Position numbers and translations under genes: made by a program. 64,000 nucleotides of DNA from NCBI RefSeq assembly GCF_963682185.1, contig NZ_OY821667.1, positions 2,802,501 through 2,866,500 on the forward strand. The letters run 5' to 3'. The notes under the pieces were generated by a model. That model was not told where the DNA came from. It did not search any database and worked only from the letters and a program-made list of their open reading frames with translations. The stretch is from an uncultured Cohaesibacter sp. GTDB taxonomy: Bacteria > Pseudomonadota > Alphaproteobacteria > Rhizobiales > Cohaesibacteraceae. Below are positions 25,133 through 54,762 of the stretch, piece by piece; the first letter of the stretch is position 1; the number at the start of each line of letters is the position of its first letter.

Positions 25133-25281
25133 TTTCATCGCAATAGGTCACGATGTGGAATCCGCGTCAAGCAAGAAAAGATTGCAGCAGGATCCAATCC
25201 ATAAAAATCCTTCTGATCGGCTCCACCGGCGGCTATTATGGGCTCCCGACGGCACCTCAAATTCCCTCTGACAGAGCCGTC

Positions 25282-25405
25282 TTGTCCCCCCACCTGTCAT
25301 CTGGTTGCGAAAAATGCTGCGGTTCGAGTGAACGGCAGGAATGAGGGAGATGGTCTGCGGCATTTGTTGACTTGCGAACGACGGCTCTGGGCCGCGACTA
25401 CATTC
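25282..25405. repeat. Dispersed intergenic repeat, copy B
   Basis: Shares the CCCC..CCTGTCATCTGGTTGCGAAAAATGCTGCG block and GCGAACGACGGCTCTGGGCCGCGACT with copies at 49660-49940 and 51060-51190. It fills most of the 335-bp gap after the LacI gene; the rest (25133-25281) has no supported gene. Confidence 0.75.
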
Positions 25406-25467
25406 GATAGTGTTAAGTTTGAATTGTTTCTTTATTGGTGTGTTCGTACAGAACACTGGAGAGGCCT

Positions 25468-25707
25468 ATGTTTGTTTTTGATTTTTTGCTTGAAGCTATC
25501 GGATATTCAACAGCTAGGGTTGTCCTGCCCATTATTTCATTTGGCTATCTTTCGGTCGAACCTGTCTCGTCTAAAGAAAAGGTATACAACTGGCTTGGTT
25601 TCAAGAGTTCAAACAACAGTAAGTATTTGTGCGAAGCCACGATGGCGGGTTGGTTGGGGTTAGTCCCATGGGTGGTCTTGATGATCCTAATATTCGCCAC
25701 GTGGTGA
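25468..25707 (+). CDS. Small two-helix membrane protein
   Basis: A 79-residue protein from ATG 25468, with GGAGAGG 4-10 bases before the start. An N-terminal hydrophobic segment (LLEAIGYSTARVVLPIISFGYL) and a C-terminal helix (GWLGLVPWVVLMILIFATW) flank a polar loop. No family recognised. It stands alone between two repeat copies. Confidence 0.55.
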   Translation: MFVFDFLLEAIGYSTARVVLPIISFGYLSVEPVSSKEKVYNWLGFKSSNNSKYLCEATMAGWLGLVPWVVLMILIFATW

Positions 25708-25749: not shown

Positions 25750-25865
25750 ATGTTGCGCTTTGAACGAATGGCCGCAATGGGGAAGCTCGCTTCTTGGAAG
25801 GCCCTCCTAGAGAACGGCAGGAAAGGACCGCCATTGCAAATCACGATCTAGATGACTGCCCTCAA
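25750..25865. repeat. Dispersed intergenic repeat, copy C
   Basis: Contains TGTTGCGCTTTGAACGAATG followed by GCCGCAATGGGGAAG and CTTCTTGGAAG, then AAATCACGATCTAGATGA. The first block is identical to the copy at 51060-51190. Confidence 0.75.
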
Positions 25866-35387: not shown

Positions 35388-37538
35388 TTACCGTTTTACA
35401 TCGGCAAGGGCCTGTTGAAAATGGTGCATGGCCAGTTTGGTCGGCTCTCCACCCTGTTTCTGAGGTTCGGTGATGATTGCCTTGATCGCCAGCATTTTGG
35501 CTCTCTGGCAAAGCCCGGCGATATCAGCACCACTCATGCCCTCGGTCAGTTCGGCCAAGGCCTCGAAGGAAACGTCCGAGCTGATTTGGCTGGTTCGGCA
35601 ATGCACCTCTAGGATTTTCTGTCGGCTCATGGCATCCGGCAACTGCAGATCAAGGACCAGATCAAACCGACCCGGCCGCAACAGGGCCTGATCAATCCTG
35701 TCGGCCCGGTTCGATGCGCCAATCACAATCACTTCCGAGTGCGGGCCGAGGCTGTCAAGTTCAAGCAGGAACTGGCCAACCATTCGGTCTCCTATCTGCC
35801 CGTCTCCGTTGTCTGAACCCCGGGCAGGAACAATTGCATCAAGCTCGTCAAAGAAAATGATGGATGGAGCCGACTGGCGTGCCCGTCTGAAAGTCTCGCG
35901 AATGCCTCGCTCGCTGTCACCAACCCACTTTGAAAGCAGCTCCGGTCCTTTGACGGTGATGAAATTGACCTCCGTATTGGCGCCGACCGCGTGAGCCAGA
36001 AGGGTCTTGCCGGTACCGGACGGTCCGGTCAGCAGAATGCCGCGCGGAGCGGAAAGGCCCACTTCCGCGAAGTGATCTGCGTAAAGCCTCGGCCATTCCA
36101 GCGCTTCGGTCAGGCGCTGTCTCTCATCGTCTAGGCCACCAATATCTGCCCAGCTTGTTTCCGGAATATCAGAGTTGAGTTCTCGAATGGTTGAGAGCTT
36201 GAAATCCTCCAGAGCCTCCAGAAAATGGGACATGCCAACGAATGGCCTTGATATTGGGCGTGAAGGATTGCTGTGGTCAAGGCTTGCCGTCCTTGCGCAG
36301 CGCATGGCGGCCTCTCTGCAAAGGGCGGCCAGATCAGAACCAAGAAAGCCATGGGTGACTGCGGCAATGCGCTCCAGGTCCACATCAGCCGCCAGGGGCA
36401 TGAAACGGGTGTGGATGGACAGGATCTCGGCCCGACCTGCCTTGCCTGGTGGGTTGATGCCGATTTCCCTGTCAAATCGCCCCGGACGCCGCAATGCCGG
36501 ATCCACATTGTTGGGCAGGTTTGTGGCCGCCATGACGACAATATTGCCTCGGCTTGAGACACCATCCATCAGCGCCAGCAACTGGCCAACGACACGTTTT
36601 TCCACTTCGCCCAGAACCGTTTCCCGGTTGGGGGCCAAGGCATCGACTTCATCGATGAACAGAATGGCTGCCCTGTGCTTCTGGGCTTCTTCAAAGACCC
36701 GCCGGAGCAATTCCTCAGATTCGCCATAGTGCTTCTGGATCACTTCCGGTCCGTTGATCGTGAGGAACACGGCGTCTGTCTGTTCGGCAACGGCCCGGGC
36801 AATCAGCGTCTTGCCACATCCCGGAGGGCCATACATCAAAACGCCGCGCGGTGCATCAATACCGAGTTGTTCAAACAGCTCTGGATGGTTGAGCGGCAGT
36901 TCCACCATTTCCCTGACCTTGGCAACCTCCTGTGTCAGGCCGCCAATATCGTCATATCCGGTTCGTCGCCCATCAGGATCAAGAAAACGGAGTTCTGTGT
37001 TTTCCGAAATTACAACGGCTCTTTCGGGCACGGTTTCGATAACCTGAAGCGCCTGCTCTTGTTCTGAATTCAGAAACAGGAGATTACCCTTGAGCAGGGC
37101 TTGACCCAAAATCCGGGCCTCTATTGCGTCCCTGTCTGTCGTCGACGCTGTCCTGTGCCCCTGCTTGCTGTCAGATCTCCATTTGTCGAACAGGGAAACC
37201 TTTTGCGGTTCGGTCTTGGGCCGAGCTGTCCTTTTGCTGAAGGTGATACGCTCCGCCTCAACGAGAGCGACGGGATTGACGCGTATCGATCCGGTATCGG
37301 TCAGGCCGATATTGAAGGCCAGAGATGGAGAAATCTGCGCCTGCGCCCGTTCCTGATCGGGTGGCAGAACTTCAACTCTTGCAAGAGCTTCTCCCGTGAA
37401 GGTGACCAAAACAAAGTCTCCCTTCTTCAGGTTTGCCTCATCCATTATATATGCGGGAAGACCTATTATGTGATCACTTCCGCCCGCTGGGGCGGAAGTG
37501 ATTGCTGCATCAAGCTGCATCGTGGAAATTGCATCCAT
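35388..37538 (-). CDS. CDC48/p97-like double AAA+ ATPase
   Basis: A 716-residue protein with the full eukaryote/archaea-like CDC48 plan. The N-domain covers about 1-185 (double-psi barrel-like, YIMDEANLKKGDFVLVTFTGEALARVEVLPP). D1 has Walker A GPPGCGKT (about 237-244), Walker B LFIDEVD and RRPGRFDREI. D2 has GPSGTGKT (about 505-512), pore loop LLSKWVGDSERG, Walker B FFDELDA and RPGRFD. It should unfold or extract proteins as a hexamer. Such proteins are rare but known in bacteria. ATG 37538 is used; 37520 is possible. Confidence 0.92.
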   Translation of the reverse strand: MDAISTMQLDAAITSAPAGGSDHIIGLPAYIMDEANLKKGDFVLVTFTGEALARVEVLPPDQERAQAQISPSLAFNIGLTDTGSIRVNPVALVEAERITFSKRTARPKTEPQKVSLFDKWRSDSKQGHRTASTTDRDAIEARILGQALLKGNLLFLNSEQEQALQVIETVPERAVVISENTELRFLDPDGRRTGYDDIGGLTQEVAKVREMVELPLNHPELFEQLGIDAPRGVLMYGPPGCGKTLIARAVAEQTDAVFLTINGPEVIQKHYGESEELLRRVFEEAQKHRAAILFIDEVDALAPNRETVLGEVEKRVVGQLLALMDGVSSRGNIVVMAATNLPNNVDPALRRPGRFDREIGINPPGKAGRAEILSIHTRFMPLAADVDLERIAAVTHGFLGSDLAALCREAAMRCARTASLDHSNPSRPISRPFVGMSHFLEALEDFKLSTIRELNSDIPETSWADIGGLDDERQRLTEALEWPRLYADHFAEVGLSAPRGILLTGPSGTGKTLLAHAVGANTEVNFITVKGPELLSKWVGDSERGIRETFRRARQSAPSIIFFDELDAIVPARGSDNGDGQIGDRMVGQFLLELDSLGPHSEVIVIGASNRADRIDQALLRPGRFDLVLDLQLPDAMSRQKILEVHCRTSQISSDVSFEALAELTEGMSGADIAGLCQRAKMLAIKAIITEPQKQGGEPTKLAMHHFQQALADVKR

Positions 37539-42414: not shown

Positions 42415-42435
42415 CCAGCGTTGAGAATGCGCTGG
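42415..42435 (+). terminator. Weak hairpin after the AraC gene
   Basis: CCAGCG-TTGAGAATG-CGCTGG is a 6-bp stem 20 bp after the AraC stop, with only a TTGG tail. It overlaps the start of a dispersed repeat. Confidence 0.3.
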
Positions 42436-42600
42436 TTGGATCGAAGGGCAGGTATGGAGAAGGCTACTTTCAGAAGATGCTGCTTGGCGAGTGGCAGTAA
42501 AGGTCTGCCGAGTGCAAATCACGCGCCTGGATGAGAGTTTTCCGGTGATGACATGGTGCACCAGACAGCTGGGAGCTCTTTTAGAGCCTTTGAAAATTGA
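42431..42600. repeat. Dispersed intergenic repeat, copy D
   Basis: A diverged copy. Its best matches are AATCACGCGCCTGGATGA (like 49795-49812) and the following GATGACATGGTGCACCAGAC block. The rest of this 414-bp gap, to 42809, shows no supported gene. Confidence 0.6.
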
Positions 42601-42809
42601 AGGGTCGTTCGCGTTTGCAAACTAGCTACCCGAATATCCTTCACCTGAGCCGTAATTAGAACCCAAGTGGGTTTCACGCAACAACATCCCATTAGCGGCC
42701 AAATATAGCCTGACTAATCCGGCCACATATAACTTCGGCCTAGAAATTTCGATAGTCATTGCTCCCGCACTCAAGCTCATTTTGGGTCTAACTGTGGCCA
42801 TGGCTTGGC

Positions 42810-47843: not shown

Positions 47844-47979
47844 AGGTCTATCGAACCGACAGAACCCAATGTTGCTATTGTCTGGGTTCCACTTGAAATG
47901 GTCACGATTGCCAAAGCACGTCTAATGAGATCTCGAATGACCGCTTTAACCCGTGGGAAGCAGAGTTCTTGCGTAGGCG

Positions 47980-48290
47980 TCGAAGAATCACCCACCAAGT
48001 GTATCAGATGTCCGATACGCTTTGCTTGTAATGGTGGCTGACCTATATATCTCATGAATAGAGCTCCTAATGGTGAAGAGGGGTTAAACTACTTTTGCTC
48101 GGCCTATGAGCAGTTTTTCTTTCATGCAGATCCTTATCTTCACCGTCTTGCCTATCACATCGGTCACAACCAGTCTGACCGTCCTGTTAAGGAATGGGCG
48201 CAGGAGCAAGTGCGAGCTCTTGCAGCAACAGCCAAAACCGGGCGAAATAATCTATGTCCATGTGGCAGCGGTAAGAAGTTCAAAAATGCT
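47980..48290 (+). pseudogene. C-terminal fragment of anaerobic sulfatase maturase
   Basis: The frame encodes KCIRCPIRFACNGG, a TGA at 48039-48041 where homologues have the Cys of GGCP, then NGEEGLNYFCSAYEQFFFHAD and a SEC-C tail GRNNLCPCGSGKKFKN. This is the C-terminal cysteine-rich part of anSME-type radical SAM enzymes. The radical SAM domain is absent, an essential Cys codon is now a stop, and a dispersed repeat replaces the last residues. No sulfatase gene is nearby. Confidence 0.72.
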
Positions 48291-48450
48291 GTACTTCATT
48301 TGAACGGCCGCAGTGGGGAAGCCACTTTGCTGTAAATGTCAAAAGGTGAGTGTCCGGTATGGGCTGCGAATACCAATCGCGATCCTGGATGAGCGGTTTC
48401 GGGCAATGATGCGGCGCATCAGGCCGCTTTGAGCCCAAATTAGACATTTA
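48281..48450. repeat. Dispersed intergenic repeat, copy E
   Basis: Begins AAAAATGCTGTACTTCATTTGA then ACGGCCGCAGTGGGGAAG, parallel to AAAATGCTACAGCTCGTTTGAA at 49700. It ends in a CGCATCAGGCCGCTTTGAGCCCAAATTAGACATT block. Its first bases replace the end of the sulfatase-maturase frame. Confidence 0.72.
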
Positions 48451-48538
48451 TGCGACTGGTTTAGCGCACGGCTCCAGCATATCGCAATCATCGAAGACTT
48501 CAGCCGCACTGTTTATAGTGTTGATCAAACCGCCAACA

Positions 48539-48946
48539 CTAACTATGCATCTTTGCCCCTTTGGTGATTTTGTCGACGATTTTCTTATCTGCGCGCAGAG
48601 CGATTCCGACCGTGTTGAGCTCGTCTGGACCATGCTCGGCAAAAACGGCGCGATTGGCCTCGTCATGCCCTGTGGCAAACATCTCCTCGATATAGGCTAC
48701 GGTCTCCACCTCCCTGTCCCGCGCCCGTCTGCGAATATTGAGAAGCGTATTGGCTTCGGCGGACAAGACGATAACGGGTTGAACAGACATCGGCAGATGA
48801 TGATTGTTCTCGCTGTCTCTGTAAGGTGATCCGATGATGCCGGGATTGGCTCCGGTGATACCACTCATCAAGAAAGCGGTCACATTGAGCTTTTGCCAAG
48901 TGGCAAGGTCATCACGAACAATGATGGCAATCTTGGTATCAAACAT
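48539..48946 (-). CDS. DUF2000 family protein
   Basis: A 135-residue protein matching DUF2000: KIAIIVRDDLATWQKLNVTAFLMSGITGANP, IGSPYRDSENNHHLPMSVQPVIVLSAEA and EEMFATGHDEANRAVF. Structures of this family resemble peptidyl-tRNA hydrolase 2 folds, but the function is unknown. It is divergent from an Lrp/AsnC regulator 205 bp away, a pairing that recurs in other bacteria. Confidence 0.88.
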   Translation of the reverse strand: MFDTKIAIIVRDDLATWQKLNVTAFLMSGITGANPGIIGSPYRDSENNHHLPMSVQPVIVLSAEANTLLNIRRRARDREVETVAYIEEMFATGHDEANRAVFAEHGPDELNTVGIALRADKKIVDKITKGAKMHS

Positions 48947-49151
48947 GTTCGATTGTACTTTCCTGTTGCGAGCCGTGCGGAAGCGAGTGCGTCAGCACTT
49001 CAATCGCGTGAGAAGGTGAGAGGTGCTTATCTATAAATATTCGCCGCAATCTTTTACACTCCGAATAATATTCTGTCATTTACTCTTACAAACGTATATC
49101 ATTCAAATAAGATGACATCTATCGAAGTATTTTCGAAATCTGGAAGCAATA

Positions 49152-49646
49152 ATGGCTGTTGACCGAACAGATCGTCGCATTTTGGCACTTCTATCGAAGA
49201 ATGTGCGGATGACCAACAAAGAGCTCGCATATGAGGTCGGTTTAGCCCCATCAAGCCTTCACGAGCGACTGAAGCGACTTCAGGAAAGCAATTTGATAGC
49301 GGGCGCACATGCGGATATTCGCTTGGAGCATATGGGGCTTGCACTGAAAGCCTTGATGTTCATCCAGATGGCAGAGCACAAAAAGAACGACCTCGATCAG
49401 TTTCTCAGGGAAGTTTTGAAAATTCCAGAGGTTCGGGCTGGCTGGATGATCAGTGGCCGCTTTGATGCGGTCGTTGAAGTGGTCACCAAAAACACTGCCC
49501 ATCTGCACCGGCTGGTGGTAGAGCAGTTTTCATCTCGAAAAGAGATAAGCCGCATCGAAACATCAATTGTCTTCGAAAGCGTGGTGCAGAATGATCTCTC
49601 TGAAACCCTCAATCTGATTGACGAAGAACAACAAGAAACGGTTTGA
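49152..49646 (+). CDS. Lrp/AsnC-family regulator
   Basis: A 164-residue regulator with the N-terminal HTH (DRTDRRILALLSKNVRMTNKELAYEVGLAPSSLHERLKRLQESNLI) and a RAM effector domain (FIQMAEHKKNDLDQFLREVLKIPEVRAGWMISGRFDAVVEVV). It probably senses an amino acid and controls the divergent DUF2000 gene and itself. Confidence 0.9.
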   Translation: MAVDRTDRRILALLSKNVRMTNKELAYEVGLAPSSLHERLKRLQESNLIAGAHADIRLEHMGLALKALMFIQMAEHKKNDLDQFLREVLKIPEVRAGWMISGRFDAVVEVVTKNTAHLHRLVVEQFSSRKEISRIETSIVFESVVQNDLSETLNLIDEEQQETV

Positions 49647-49659
49647 CACGGGTGTGGCA

Positions 49660-49940
49660 AATGTCCCCTCCGTCCGTCCGCCCGTCACCGGGTTCATGAA
49701 AATGCTACAGCTCGTTTGAATGACAGGAATGGGGAAGTTGCCTTGTGGTAGGTGCTGACCGGCGAACGGCGGCTCTGGGCCGCGACTGCTATTCACGCGC
49801 CTAGATGATCGTTTCTCATTGATGATGCACTGCACCAGACTGCTCCGAGCCCAAGGTGGACATTGAAAATGGTGGAACTTTCGCATGCGCGAAAGAAGTG
49901 CCCGGGAACTGCCGCCCAAAGCGGTCATTAGGTGTCGCTC
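49660..49940. repeat. Dispersed intergenic repeat, copy F (longest)
   Basis: The fullest copy. In order it has ATGTCCCCTCCGTCCG, a GAAAATGCT core, GGAATGGGGAAG, GGCGAACGGCGGCTCTGGGC, CACGCGCCTAGATGA, GATGCACTGCACCAGACTGC and CGAGCCCAAGGTGGACATTG. Parts recur in all other copies. It fills the gap between the Lrp and TetR genes. Confidence 0.8.
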
Positions 49941-49981
49941 AAATAAAGTCCGCCCAGCACATTTAAGTTGCGCGACATTAA

Positions 49982-50001
49982 AATCGATCATATGATCGAT
50001 T
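49982..50001. promoter_or_regulatory. Perfect 20-bp palindrome before a TetR gene
   Basis: AATCGATCATATGATCGATT is a perfect inverted repeat ending one base before the TetR start codon. Binding there would block translation start or transcription, so autoregulation is likely. Confidence 0.8.
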
Positions 50002-50002
50002 C

Positions 50003-50623
50003 ATGGAAAAGACTAACACCCCTCAACATTACATGCGCGGAGACAATCGCCGTATCGAGATAGCCTGCGCCGCTCGGACAGTGATTGTGGAGAAAGGTTA
50101 TGCTGCGCTGCGAACCCGCGATGTTGCTTCGCGCGTTGGAATCAGCATTTCCACGATGCATTTTCATGTACCAACGAAAATCGATCTTATTGTGCTGGTC
50201 GCCGAAACGACGTTGGATGAGTTCATAAGGCTGTTGCCTTCGCCCCCCATCCCCGAAGTTGCGGCGCGCGACCAACTCAGAGCCGAAATAGAGGCATACT
50301 ACAACAGCTTAAATGAGCGGGAAGAACTGGCGGCATGCTATATCCAGTTAACCCACGTTGCCCGCTACGAACCCCAAATTGCGACCATCCTTGATGCCTT
50401 TGAGCAAGGCTGGTGTCAGCGATATGTCGAAATTCTCGAAATAGGTCGTAGGCAGGGGGCCTTTCGTGCAGATTTATCGCCATTGCCTGCTGCGCTTGTT
50501 ATCACCGGTGCTCTCACGGCCTTTGGTACGAGAGGGCCTCAAAAATTGGAAATGTTTTGGCCTGTATTTGACGAAATCGAACGCGGCTTTCTGAGCCATA
50601 GCCAAGAAGGAAAAGCCCTATGA
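50003..50623 (+). CDS. TetR-family regulator
   Basis: A 206-residue repressor. HTH: RRIEIACAARTVIVEKGYAALRTRDVASRVGISISTMHFHVPTKIDLI. The C-terminal half is helical (YIQLTHVARYEPQIATILDAFEQGW). There is no clear Shine-Dalgarno because the palindrome occupies that place, so a leaderless message is possible. The stop overlaps the DUF1992 start by ATGA. Confidence 0.88.
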   Translation: MEKTNTPQHYMRGDNRRIEIACAARTVIVEKGYAALRTRDVASRVGISISTMHFHVPTKIDLIVLVAETTLDEFIRLLPSPPIPEVAARDQLRAEIEAYYNSLNEREELAACYIQLTHVARYEPQIATILDAFEQGWCQRYVEILEIGRRQGAFRADLSPLPAALVITGALTAFGTRGPQKLEMFWPVFDEIERGFLSHSQEGKAL

Positions 50624-50937
50624 AGTTCTCCGATCTTGCGGAAAGGCAGATTTTAAAAGCGCAATGTGAGGGACAGTTCGATAATCTCAAAGGGGCGGGA
50701 AAGCCGCTCAATTTGGAGAACAGCGCAGGCGGAACCGTTGCGGTTGGCTTTCGCATAATGGCAGAGTCTGGAGCTCTGCCACGTGAAATCGAACTGCGCA
50801 AAGCTGTAGAAAAACAATCCGCCAAAATAAGAGATGCTGCTGATGACGAGGAACGCAGACGAGAAACAAAAACACTCGCTGAACTCCAGCTTCGTCTGGA
50901 TATCGAACAGGAAGCGCGCAAGCGGTTTGGCTTATAG
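50620..50937 (+). CDS. DUF1992 family protein
   Basis: A 105-residue protein of the DUF1992 (DnaJC28 conserved domain) family: FSDLAERQILKAQCEGQFDNLKGAGKPLNLEN is the family signature, followed by a long helical region (LRKAVEKQSAKIRDAADDEERRRETKT). Function unknown. ATGA overlap with the TetR gene implies coupled expression. Confidence 0.88.
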   Translation: MKFSDLAERQILKAQCEGQFDNLKGAGKPLNLENSAGGTVAVGFRIMAESGALPREIELRKAVEKQSAKIRDAADDEERRRETKTLAELQLRLDIEQEARKRFGL

Positions 50938-51059
50938 ACACGCCGACATCTGACCGGCAGGATTGTCGGGTGTATGTTTTGAGCAACACAGCGAAGGTCA
51001 TCTTCCCGCCTTTTTGCCAGAAGCGCACACCGGCGCTATGAAATTTCGGCACTGCATCG

Positions 51060-51190
51060 AATGTCCCCTCCGTCCGCCCATCCGCCATCTGGTCGAAAAA
51101 ATGTTGCGCTTTGAACGAATGGCCACAATGCGGAAGCGGGCTTCGGGGATGTAACTTCTGCCGAGAGTCCGGTAAGGGCCGCAAAGGTAA
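51060..51190. repeat. Dispersed intergenic repeat, copy G
   Basis: Shares ATGTCCCCTCCGTCCG exactly with copy F and TGTTGCGCTTTGAACGAATG exactly with copy C, so it links the two halves of the family. It fills the 311-bp gap between DUF1992 and the aldo/keto reductase. Confidence 0.8.
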
Positions 51191-51248
51191 GTCATTCCCC
51201 AGACCAGTTTCCTGATCTGAGGATTTCGGTTTTATAGCTTTCTGCAGG

Positions 51249-52076
51249 TCAATCCCATTCCGGGGCAAGGTCGGATGGCGAGACAATCCGTCCATCCGGT
51301 TTCGCCATAGCGTGGATGGCTTGCATCTCTGAGGCTGTGAGTTCGAAATCGAAGATGCCGAAGTTCTCAGGCAGGCGAGACAGCTTGGCTGTTTTGGACA
51401 GGGCAATCACGCGTGGTTGCTGGACAAGCCAGCGCAAAGCAACCTGCGCTGCGGTCTTACCGTGGGCTGCGCCAATCTCTGAAAGGCATTCGTCCTGCGG
51501 AACCAATCCATCCGCCATGCCGAAATAGCTGGTGATTGACATGTCGAGCTGCTCGCATGCTTTCAGCACCGGGGCCTGCGAGAGGTAGGGATGATATTCG
51601 ACCTGATTGGTGACGATAGGTGCCTTGCTCAGAGAGGCGGCTTTCTGCATCTGGGCCACGGTGTAGTTACTGACACCAATATGGCGGGTCATGCCTCGTT
51701 CAACCGTCTTGTTCAGTTCCTGTATCTGCGTCTCCATCGGCACGTCGCTACCGTGGGGCCAGTGAAGCAGCAACAGATCAACATGGTCGACATCGAGCTT
51801 TTTGAGACTTTCTTCGACAGAAGGGATAAAGTCGGCAGGATCGAACTTCGTGACCCACACCTTGGTGGTGAGAAAGATTTCGTCCCGGGCCACGCCGGAT
51901 GCCTTGATCGCCGCGCCAACGGCGGCTTCATTGTTATAGACCTGTGCCGTGTCGATATGTCGAAAGCCAAGCTTGATCGCTTCGGGCAGCACTTTCATGA
52001 CTTCTGCGTCATTCATCCGGTATGTACCAAATCCCAGAGACGGGATCGCGGCACCATTTGCGATTACATTGTGCAT
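51249..52076 (-). CDS. Aldo/keto reductase (2,5-diketogluconate reductase type)
   Basis: A 275-residue AKR5-like enzyme. GFRHIDTAQVYNNE (Asp, Tyr), IFLTTKVW (Lys) and LLLLHWPHGSD (His) form the tetrad; IGVSNYTVAQM and NQVEYHPYL follow, with cofactor region ALSKTAKLSRLPENFGIF. Full length and intact, unlike the reductase at 675. ATG 52076 or 52079 is used because AAGGAGCA is at 52081-52088; it sits inside the end of the upstream SDR gene. Confidence 0.9.
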   Translation of the reverse strand: MHNVIANGAAIPSLGFGTYRMNDAEVMKVLPEAIKLGFRHIDTAQVYNNEAAVGAAIKASGVARDEIFLTTKVWVTKFDPADFIPSVEESLKKLDVDHVDLLLLHWPHGSDVPMETQIQELNKTVERGMTRHIGVSNYTVAQMQKAASLSKAPIVTNQVEYHPYLSQAPVLKACEQLDMSITSYFGMADGLVPQDECLSEIGAAHGKTAAQVALRWLVQQPRVIALSKTAKLSRLPENFGIFDFELTASEMQAIHAMAKPDGRIVSPSDLAPEWD

Positions 52077-52087
52077 CATTTGCTCCT

Positions 52088-52888
52088 TCATGATTGAGGA
52101 CGACTTCCCGGACGAGCCTGCTGTGCGTGGCGCCGGGCTTTTTCTTCTTCACTGGTGACGAGATGGTCTCGACCGGCTGCCTGAGTGGCTTCGTCACCAC
52201 CGGTTAGGCTCGTCACGCCTGCCATCAGGGCATCGAAGCCTTGACGAGCGACAAGTACCGGATCATTCTTCCAGCTATTGTCTCCAAACGCAGTGGTGCC
52301 CATCCCTGCACGGGCATGAAACTCTGTGGCGGTCGCTCCGGGATGCAGCAAAGTCACTGTGATGCCGGTATCCCGCAATTCTTCCCGCAAACCATGGCCA
52401 AAGGAGGTCATAAAGGCTTTCGAAGGGCCATAAACACTCTCGAACGGTGTTGGCGTTGTAGCCGGCAGGGAACTGACCATCAGCACCTTGCCTTTGGCTG
52501 CGATAACCTGTGGCAACAGAGCATGGCACAGGCGCACCGTAGACATGATGTTGAGATCAAGCAGGTGAAGATGCTTCTCCAGCGGCAGATCCAAAAAGGC
52601 ACCACCGACAGCAATCCCGGCATTGAGCACCAACACGTCTAGGGTATCGCCGGAACGCTTAATCGCCTCGACGAGCGCTTCCACGCCCGAGGAATTTGAC
52701 AGATCTGACTGAACAGCCACCACCTTGCCACCGTAAAACCTGAGGTCTTCTGCGGCTTGGTGCACGCGTTCGCTTGCTCCACTGATGATGAGGTCATAGC
52801 CTTCGGCTGCAAGCAATTTTGCAAGTTCAAGCCCTATCCCGGCGGATCCCCCTGTAACCAGGGCGCGGGGTTTTAGGATTTCATCCAT
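52088..52888 (-). CDS. Short-chain dehydrogenase/reductase
   Basis: A 266-residue SDR: ALVTGGSAGIGLELAKLLA, LVLNAGIAVGG, VLMVSSLPATTP and YGPSKAFMTSFGHGLREEL. It overlaps the upstream SDR by 16 bp, so the three-gene set (SDR, SDR, aldo/keto reductase) is one operon opposite a LysR gene. Substrate unknown. Confidence 0.9.
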   Translation of the reverse strand: MDEILKPRALVTGGSAGIGLELAKLLAAEGYDLIISGASERVHQAAEDLRFYGGKVVAVQSDLSNSSGVEALVEAIKRSGDTLDVLVLNAGIAVGGAFLDLPLEKHLHLLDLNIMSTVRLCHALLPQVIAAKGKVLMVSSLPATTPTPFESVYGPSKAFMTSFGHGLREELRDTGITVTLLHPGATATEFHARAGMGTTAFGDNSWKNDPVLVARQGFDALMAGVTSLTGGDEATQAAGRDHLVTSEEEKARRHAQQARPGSRPQS

Positions 52889-53718
52889 TTCTCGAATGCT
52901 CCTTTGAAGTTGTTATGCCAGCGCGACAGGGCTGGCCGATTGAAAATCATGTCTTCGATGGCCCAGCGCATGCGCCTTGCGTCCATGTCAGTGGTCACCT
53001 CACCATCGGGACAGAGAATGTAGAAATCCCCTTTCCGCAAACGGGCCAGAAAATGCTCCACCGTCTGCTCCGCCGTCCAGGCTGCGTCAGGCTTTTCGCT
53101 GCCTTTCGGCTTGTGTGCCGCGTTCATCGGCGTCCAAGTGTAACCCGGAACGAACAAATGGGCGGAAACGCGACCATCCGTGGTATTGCGCAATTCGTGT
53201 TCCAATTGTTCCGTCAGTACCTTGATGGCGGCTTTGGAAACAGAATAGGCTGCATTGCCGGGCGGCGTGGTGATGCCTTCCTTGGAGCCGAGGTTGATGA
53301 TTGCGGCGGGCTCATCAGATGCAATCATGGCCGGAACAAACAGATGCTGCATGGCGAGGGCTGAGGTGAAATTGACATCAAGCACCTGCTGCCAGTCTTC
53401 AGGCGAATCCCACGGTCCGGCCTTTTTGCCCATGCCCACATTGTTGACGAGCAGTTGCACGGCGCCAAATCGCTCAATCGTGGCGGAATGGAACCGACGG
53501 AGATCATTCCGGTCAGCAGCATTTCCAAAGACGATCAGTGTTTCGGTCTGCAAAGTTGAGGCCAAGGACGTTAGGGCTTCTTCATTGCAATCAAAGAGCG
53601 CCAGCTTCATGCCCTGTTGCGACAAGGACCGAGCCAGTGCGGCGCCCAAGCCGGCTGCCGCTCCAGTGATCACCGCCACGTTGCCTGCTGCAATGATGGT
53701 ATCCATTCGTGGTGACAT
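52873..53718 (-). CDS. Short-chain dehydrogenase/reductase
   Basis: A 281-residue SDR: AVITGAAAGLGAALARSLS, LLVNNVGMGKK, IINLGSKEGITT (Ser at the usual place is shifted) and YSVSKAAIKVLTEQLEHEL. GGAGAG lies before ATG 53718; an upstream TTG at 53757 is unlikely. First gene of the set divergent from LysR. Confidence 0.88.
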   Translation of the reverse strand: MSPRMDTIIAAGNVAVITGAAAGLGAALARSLSQQGMKLALFDCNEEALTSLASTLQTETLIVFGNAADRNDLRRFHSATIERFGAVQLLVNNVGMGKKAGPWDSPEDWQQVLDVNFTSALAMQHLFVPAMIASDEPAAIINLGSKEGITTPPGNAAYSVSKAAIKVLTEQLEHELRNTTDGRVSAHLFVPGYTWTPMNAAHKPKGSEKPDAAWTAEQTVEHFLARLRKGDFYILCPDGEVTTDMDARRMRWAIEDMIFNRPALSRWHNNFKGAFEKWMKS

Positions 53719-53797
53719 CGGGCTCTCCTTTTTCGATATGGGGTGTCCTGCTGACAAGATATGAGGTGGCGAATGGATTGATAAGTTGCATGAATAT

Positions 53798-53808
53798 ACA
53801 CACGGTGT
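53798..53808. promoter_or_regulatory. Possible LysR site
   Basis: ACAC-ACG-GTGT lies in an AT-rich ATATACACACGGTGTTTATA context between the divergent SDR and LysR genes. This fits a T-N11-A type LysR box but is short. Confidence 0.35.
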
Positions 53809-53862
53809 TTATATCAATTCACCAATTGTGTTGTTCGGGGATTGCTGGATGGAAAATGGACA

Positions 53863-54762
53863 ATGGCTATGAAACTGACCAGAAGTGATTTGGGCGATCT
53901 CAATCAGTTCCGATGTATCGCTGAAGCCGGCGGTTTCCGCAAAGCTGCAAAAGAACTTGATATAAACCCCTCGGCACTCAGTCACGCCATGCGAGGGCTT
54001 GAGGAACGCACGGGCGTGCGCCTGTTCAACCGCACCAATCGGAGCGTGACCCTGACACCTGCTGGCGAGGATCTACTCAAGGAAATCCAGACCGGATTTT
54101 CCGCTATCGCAAGCGGACTTGAAGCCCTTAACCGGTATCGCGATCGGCCTGCTGGGCATTTACGTCTCAATGTACCGACCGATGCAGCCAGACTGGTCTT
54201 GGCTCCAATTCTGTCCGATTATTGCCGAACCTACCCCGATGTCCGACTGGAGATGGTGATCGAGGACCGCATGGTCGATATCGTCAAAGACGGTTTTGAT
54301 GCGGGCATTCGCTATGGCGATGCCGTGCCTCAGGACATGATTGCCATTCCGTTGGGGCCTGAGCTGAACTGGATCATGGTCGCATCCCCGGACTATCTGG
54401 AAGCGTTTGGTTCTCCGGAAAAGCCATCAGATCTGAAGGAACACCGATGTATCGGCATGCGCATGGGAAACGGGGCTCTCTATCACTGGGAACTGGAGCG
54501 CGACGAAGAGGCCATCCTGCTGAATATCGACTGGCACCTTATTACCAACGAGACCAATGTGATCGTACAACTCGCCCAGACCGGCGCAGGGGTTGCCTAT
54601 GTTCTGGAAGCGAGGGTCAAAGAGCAGTTGGCATCAGGGCAACTGGTGCAAGTGTTGCCCGAATGGTCGTCCATGGGCCCAGCCTTCTTTCTCTACTATC
54701 CCAGCCGCCGACAACTGCCTGAAGCCCTCAGGGCGCTGATCGATATAGCAAAGCAGAAGTGA
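53863..54762 (+). CDS. LysR-family regulator
   Basis: A 299-residue regulator with HTH LNQFRCIAEAGGFRKAAKELDINPSALSHAMRGLEERTGVRLFNRTNRSVTLTPAG and a periplasmic-binding-like effector domain (LNVPTDAARLVLAPILSDYCRTYPDVRLEM). Start at MAMKL 53863; a TTG at 53842 is open but weak. Divergent from the SDR/AKR operon that it should regulate. Confidence 0.9.
   Translation: MAMKLTRSDLGDLNQFRCIAEAGGFRKAAKELDINPSALSHAMRGLEERTGVRLFNRTNRSVTLTPAGEDLLKEIQTGFSAIASGLEALNRYRDRPAGHLRLNVPTDAARLVLAPILSDYCRTYPDVRLEMVIEDRMVDIVKDGFDAGIRYGDAVPQDMIAIPLGPELNWIMVASPDYLEAFGSPEKPSDLKEHRCIGMRMGNGALYHWELERDEEAILLNIDWHLITNETNVIVQLAQTGAGVAYVLEARVKEQLASGQLVQVLPEWSSMGPAFFLYYPSRRQLPEALRALIDIAKQK

Follow-up and report, generated by a model that had tools for sequence, protein, structure and literature searches.

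Degenerate intergenic repeats as probable recombination sites bounding mobile gene cassettes in Cohaesibacter chromosomes

The DNA analysed here, referred to as the window, is a stretch of 64,000 nucleotides from the uncultured Cohaesibacter sp. contig NZ_OY821667.1, and it contains seven dispersed, degenerate repeats (A to G) with genes lying between them. The initial annotation had claimed at least seven such copies from shared sequence blocks, and a profile built without any sequence of this genome recovered exactly these seven places (E 1e-59 to 5e-11). The next-best match of this profile in the window reached only E 0.25, and no match at E ≤ 0.1 appeared in any of 20 versions of the window shuffled in three-base blocks. 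With copy F as the sole nhmmer query against the window and seven loci of the same genome, copies E, B, D, G and C were matched at E 1e-15 to 1e-5, and copy A most weakly at E 0.002. The features are as follows, with positions in the repeat model given where they define the extent of a copy:

2716-2792, + strand: copy A, partial arm (model 48-124; profile E 4.8e-11); middle core ~2742, inner core ~2788
about 25277-25402, + strand: copy B, arm (model 8-133); middle core ~25343, inner core ~25389
25750-25865, + strand: copy C, model 45-161, an arm running on into the centre; cores ~25779 and ~25825
about 42418-42625, + strand: copy D, arm and centre (model 36-242); cores ~42456 and ~42502
about 48281-48450, + strand: copy E, arm and centre (model 40-209); cores ~48315 and ~48361, the latter being the inner core and the left edge of the putative DUF2000/AsnC cassette
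48362-49777: putative E-F cassette, from the inner core of E to that of F
48539-48946, - strand: DUF2000 gene (PF09391, E 7e-43), inside the E-F cassette
49152-49646, + strand: Lrp/AsnC-family regulator gene, inside the E-F cassette
about 49658-49935, + strand: copy F, arm, centre and the first part of a second, inverted arm (model 1-278); outer core ~49672, middle core ~49731, inner core ~49777, inverted core ~49916
49778-51176: F-G segment, from the inner core of F to that of G
50003-50623: TetR-family gene, within the F-G segment
about 51050-51200, + strand: copy G, one arm, oriented as A-F; outer core ~51072, middle core ~51130, inner core ~51176
51177-54753: AKR-SDR-SDR-LysR module, right of the core of copy G

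Elsewhere in the window, a lone core-like site at 47948 (14.9 bits) stands without a recognised repeat around it, and 35388-37538 encodes a bacterial CDC48-type double AAA ATPase of 716 aa that scores 697 bits to TIGR01243, below the cut-off.

The repeat unit consists of an arm of ~131 bp with three direct copies of a core, followed by a centre and, in some copies, by an inverted second arm. The family described in the initial annotation stands; the unit is longer than the blocks listed there. The core follows the consensus CGAATGnCnGCWWT|GGGCCGCG, with the outer copy ending in ...|GTCCGCC, and its inner form spans 22 bases (CGAATGnCnGCWWTGGGCCGCG). In copy F, the region ~49870-49910 is the remainder of the centre and the final ~25 bp are the beginning of the inverted arm. 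Among 173 repeat hits of at least 30 bits in the fetched loci, 75 were a single arm, 68 an arm with the centre and 14 carried both arms, the remainder being centre with right arm (8), centre only (7) and one other; single copies thus do hold different subsets, as had been noticed, and arm and centre appear to behave as separate modules. The repeats are mutually ~60-80% alike with short exact matches, and their best conserved stretches include the cores, the inner core above all. A relic of a lost host gene, one of the origins proposed earlier, was rejected: a Pfam family was found for none of six ORFs that run into a copy (A, B, F or G; 25238-25663 is one of the six), and the conserved parts are short, directly repeated cores. 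No known transposase was found inside the repeats, in agreement with the initial annotation.

Folding analysis gave a consensus that is more suggestive than the individual copies. The consensus of the 13 copies with inverted parts forms a near-perfect palindrome (-210 kcal/mol over 414 nt), and good folding is still present in some single copies. On neither strand did copy F fold better than its shuffled versions (z 0.24 and 0.20), RNAalifold kept 6 pairs on the repeat copies, none of them covarying, and along an 80-pair helix in 18 copies the paired fraction was 62.2% vs 61.9% after partners were shuffled among copies, with 175 of 500 shuffles reaching the observed pairing. Since the pairing of the arms equals the shuffled level, second arms behave like modules obtainable from elsewhere; for the same reason a conserved hairpin is unsupported, and an attC-like folded site, attractive from the consensus, was dropped. 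An RNA element was likewise rejected, as copy F folds like shuffles and Rfam gave 0 matches in the window at the gathering score. Conserved folding, which the initial annotation had named as a feature to look for, was thus not found in these copies.

Profile searches of the same genome and of related genomes found many further copies. The source genome (5.39 Mb, one contig) holds 41 matches at E ≤ 0.01 to a model built partly from its own copies, and at least 50 at E ≤ 1 when 150 of 1345 first-look candidates were scored; most are clustered. Of 30 relatives examined, 17 were Cohaesibacter congeners and 16 of these contain copies, with 1-82 each, and outside the genus 1-2 weaker matches occurred in 3 of 13 genomes. 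The core is also matched in Cohaesibacter marisflavi (NZ_FOVR01000009.1). One 195-base copy queried for a plasmid source gave no match. At the level of titles and abstracts we found no published announcement of these repeats, and a description in print is possible. Taken with the copy structure, these results support a dispersed, mosaic family spread by recombination, as had been suspected. Separately, an 8-kb stretch that contains repeats is 99.9% identical between two loci (L075, G000:245000-253000; L119, G009 C23) whose species are 89.8% alike at the reference locus, and this stretch is a recent transfer.

The repeats are polar along the chromosome. All seven copies in the window point in one direction, and of 89 pairs of neighbouring repeats 0.1-4 kb apart, both-armed copies excluded, 76 agreed in direction (p 2.7e-12 on the assumption of independence, which does not hold for all pairs, as some loci share transferred DNA). 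An array at 1660-1760 kb of the congener genome G013 consists mostly of single genes between repeats and includes a repeat-free stretch of ~28 kb. Its 29 same-direction gaps of at most 3.5 kb measure 549-2194 bp in all cases except one overlap, and the 34 genes of at least 120 aa within the G013 gaps are split evenly, 17 along and 17 against the repeat polarity. When 30 array ORFs were compared with Pfam, 7 had no family; the content includes three GNAT acetyltransferases, TetR, AraC and LysR regulators, an aldo-keto reductase, EamA, SDR and epimerase genes and two transposases. One cassette of the G013 array (L081:9873-10805) is a phosphotransferase-family gene (Pfam APH).

Within the window, homology to other genomes breaks at the cores of E, F and G. 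The block at 48351-49789 is 76% identical to G012 (L110:7848-9259) and G013 (L080:6789-5378), and this homology stops within ~12 bp of the inner cores at 48361 (E) and 49777 (F). Because 76% is close to the window's background identity to G012 (75.3%; 85.6% to G013), we claim no recent transfer of the E-F block. Its counterpart in G012 and G013 is itself part of a 99.45% block shared by these two genomes. To the right of copy G, homology to the AKR-SDR-SDR-LysR module starts at 51163 (G006), 51169 (G016) and 51175 (G014), that is at the core of G, and the left neighbours of the module differ among the three congeners. At the module start there is a repeat in G016, a very weak one in G014 (E 0.11) and a core-like word in G006. 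In G014 and G016 a repeat stands 24 bp away from the far end of the module, and in G006 and the window the module continues into further common DNA. The DUF2000 and AsnC pair also occurs in G007 with no repeat and at a second G013 place with one weak repeat. As the pair and the AKR-SDR-SDR-LysR module both vary in how they are bounded by repeats, the way in which cassettes first arise is accessible to direct comparison here.

Comparison between congeners extends this pattern to recently exchanged DNA. G013 (L080) and G012 (L110) share a block of 4182 bp at 99.45% identity with CGGCCC at both edges, past which blastn identity between the two loci does not continue. At a reference locus, picked for its conserved Xer-type recombinase, the same genomes are 73.8% identical over 7.4 kb, so the block has moved between species recently. 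A stretch of 775 bp is 99.1% identical between G013 and G003, whose background is 80.4%, and its edges are an inner and an outer core. Three locations were recorded for each of two acetyltransferase cassettes (the first in L079, L080 and G012 L085, the second in L080, L081 and L083). Across the comparison, in which L145 and L005 were left out as duplicates and the IS-bearing loci L120, L121, L140-L144 and L147-L149 were not compared with each other, 35 of 61 clusters of block ends fell inside a repeat in at least one partner and 26 elsewhere, against a chance of 3.9% per random position and ~7.6% per pair under a null of random positions in the same loci, these loci having been chosen for holding repeats and clusters that join several pairs having more chances than the ~7.6% allows. 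Within 10 bp of a strong core lay 19 of the 61 clusters. The ends inside repeats have preferred positions: 18 of the 35 lie at folded model 105-135, where the inner core is at ~120, and 6 at 14-30, at the outer core. Five distinct blocks have a core at both ends, direct in four and inverted in one (L080/L085); the core-likeness of edges and flanks was partly judged by eye. The comparison yielded no clean single-cassette empty site.

We found two tyrosine recombinases and two IS families associated with the repeats. An IS91-like element of 2569 bp encodes an HUH transposase (NF033538, 433 bits) and a tyrosine recombinase ORF (PF00589, PF13495), and G001 carries seven identical copies of it (L120:11653-14221, L121 and L140-L144). 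All seven have CCTT or CCAA at the end of the left flank and WWnn(C/G)nG at the start of the right one, which is core-like; four lie within a recognised repeat and the other three in look-alikes judged by eye. Relatives at 74-91% identity (L147-L149) show partial core-likeness of the flanks, and copies in the source genome and G007 begin at the outer core of a repeat (L070 7702 and L151 228; model 361). Compared with the usual target of its family, that of the G001 element seems unusually specific. An IS110-family copy is present at three places (L084:13402-14773, L150:4973-6344, and L082:1-928 with L081:19557-20000) that are 99.2-99.7% alike, and its right end coincides with the inner core position, a strong core being called in two of the three.

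The second recombinase is a small protein of ~212 aa in which only the catalytic domain PF00589 was found, and which is weakly similar to XerD among solved structures. It occurs in 14 copies in 9 of 18 genus genomes, several of them fragments or broken by stops. A repeat lies within 200 bp of 10 of the 14 copies (crude chance 8e-15), 3 of these 10 repeats being weak hits of 14-18 bits. At E ≤ 1e-20 the gene is absent from the source genome and from G002, G003, G004, G006, G007, G008, G014 and G016. Several of the genomes without it are rich in repeats, so the protein acts in trans, is often lost or is not the enzyme. The gene is carried by G012 and G013, the two genomes with the youngest large shared block, and neither has the IS91 transposase.

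Taken together, comparison of these sequences suggests that mobile gene cassettes on the chromosomes of Cohaesibacter probably have the repeats as their boundaries, each repeat being a worn recombination-site module. We are more confident that the cores serve as block edges than we are of this whole reading, and less confident about the enzyme. The sites, their polarity, the many block edges at cores, the transfer between species and the use of the same point by the IS91-like element all emerge from the genome comparisons; beyond them we infer a site-specific joining reaction, a tyrosine recombinase as its enzyme and movement of the cassettes via a circular form. In the proposed mechanism, DNA would be broken and rejoined in or next to the G-C box where the core consensus carries its bar, a block flanked by two cores of the same orientation would leave, pass through a circular intermediate and enter another core or a look-alike, and the outcome would be gene arrays separated by repeats of one polarity. 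Exchange among the several cores of an arm would produce mosaic and truncated copies. The most likely enzyme would be the ~212-aa single-domain recombinase or the recombinase of the IS91-like element. Such a cassette-boundary reading would explain the degenerate repeat family and would offer candidate recombinases.

The main rival, which we regard as unlikely, is that the repeats are old and inert and that imported DNA joins by RecA or microhomology wherever bases are best conserved. Passive crossover of this kind would need no special enzyme, which suits those repeat-rich genomes that have no candidate recombinase, and the cores, especially the inner one, are indeed among the best conserved stretches. 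However, repeats with so limited a likeness and such short exact matches offer little for it to act on, the partner of window position 51176 in G006 has a core-like word and no recognised repeat, and the polarity, the insertion of IS elements at the same point and the adjacency of the recombinase would all have to be coincidences.

Two further explanations derive the repeats from transposable elements. That they are ends or non-autonomous relatives of the IS91-like rolling-circle element, whose blocks would move in a Helitron-like manner, seems improbable to us. The element does sit at core-like points in all seven G001 copies and partly in its relatives, it begins at the outer core in the source genome and in G007, and its transposase, found in 8 of 18 genus genomes, has an uninterrupted frame in the source genome. 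Yet its ends bear no resemblance to the repeat by eye, one IS subfamily having been compared, and transposase searches gave no hit in the other 10 of 18 genomes, including G003, G012, G013, G006, G014 and G016, among which are those sharing the youngest blocks. A decayed MITE or long-palindrome element with inverted arms of ~131 bp, close to the non-autonomous element that the initial annotation had considered, is very hard to sustain as the main reading: the palindromic consensus and the well-folding single copies speak for it, but both arms are present in only 14 of the 173 hits, the arms neither covary nor are more complementary than shuffled ones, and block edges inside the element would be left unexplained. 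No target-site duplication was seen by eye and no empty site was found.

To our knowledge, no well-described system other than integrons keeps and reshuffles single genes in arrays of cassettes, and clusters of attC sites without an integrase are termed CALINs. The Cohaesibacter loci resemble them in having arrays of mostly single-gene segments separated by one-polarity repeats, blocks common to several genomes with many of their edges at favoured positions in the repeat, adjacent tyrosine recombinases and acetyltransferase genes among the content. IS1111-type elements insert into attC, and the IS110-family copy similarly ends at the Cohaesibacter site. In contrast to integrons, the arms hold several direct cores, and a classical integron was rejected: IntI (TIGR02249) exceeded its cut-off in 0 of 18 genus genomes, paired attC boxes (RYYYAAC and GTTRRRY) occurred in 1 of 173 repeats vs 3.05 expected in shuffles, no conserved hairpin was found and genes lie evenly on both strands. 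The repeats probably work like a gene-cassette system that is, by the tests made, not an integron.

Other known systems share single features with these loci. ISCR elements carry neighbouring genes, and the core-like targets of the Cohaesibacter IS91-like element recall the IS91/ISCR group, whereas the repeats contain no IS genes and, by eye, no IS ends. BIMEs and RIMEs are mosaic intergenic repeats, and like these and MITEs the Cohaesibacter repeats are short, dispersed, mosaic and nearly limited to one genus; unlike them, they mark the edges of transferred blocks and are polar along the chromosome. FimB and FimE are small catalytic-domain tyrosine recombinases, to which the small recombinase is comparable in size (~200 aa) and in its lone detected domain, but it matched none of the NCBIfam invertase models at E ≤ 0.001.

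More tentatively, and with a probability that we would put somewhat short of even, the loci could represent a second natural cassette system independent of integrons, with cores repeated on exchangeable arms, no conserved hairpin, a single-domain tyrosine recombinase that itself travels as a cassette, a capacity to take up ordinary chromosomal genes on either strand and a presence beyond Cohaesibacter in further families of its class. The case for the small recombinase as the enzyme also draws on genomes outside the genus, where 8 of 23 loci have a core no further than 350 bp from its gene at p < 0.05, 4 of them at p < 0.01, and core proximity is not significant in the other 15; 3 of 26 loci were skipped in this test, and some of the 23 come from one genome. 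In a sample of the class, a strict core word, chosen after the 23-locus test, was present in 8 of the 12 genomes that have the gene and in 46 of the 373 that lack it (Fisher 3e-5, uncorrected for genome size); a reversed control word was present in 2 of the former and about 25 of the latter. A genome of another family, G023, carries four small-recombinase copies (L173, L181, L185 and L188) with flanks alike by eye, perhaps a sister system with other arms, and at two of these four loci a core word lies within 165 bp of the gene.
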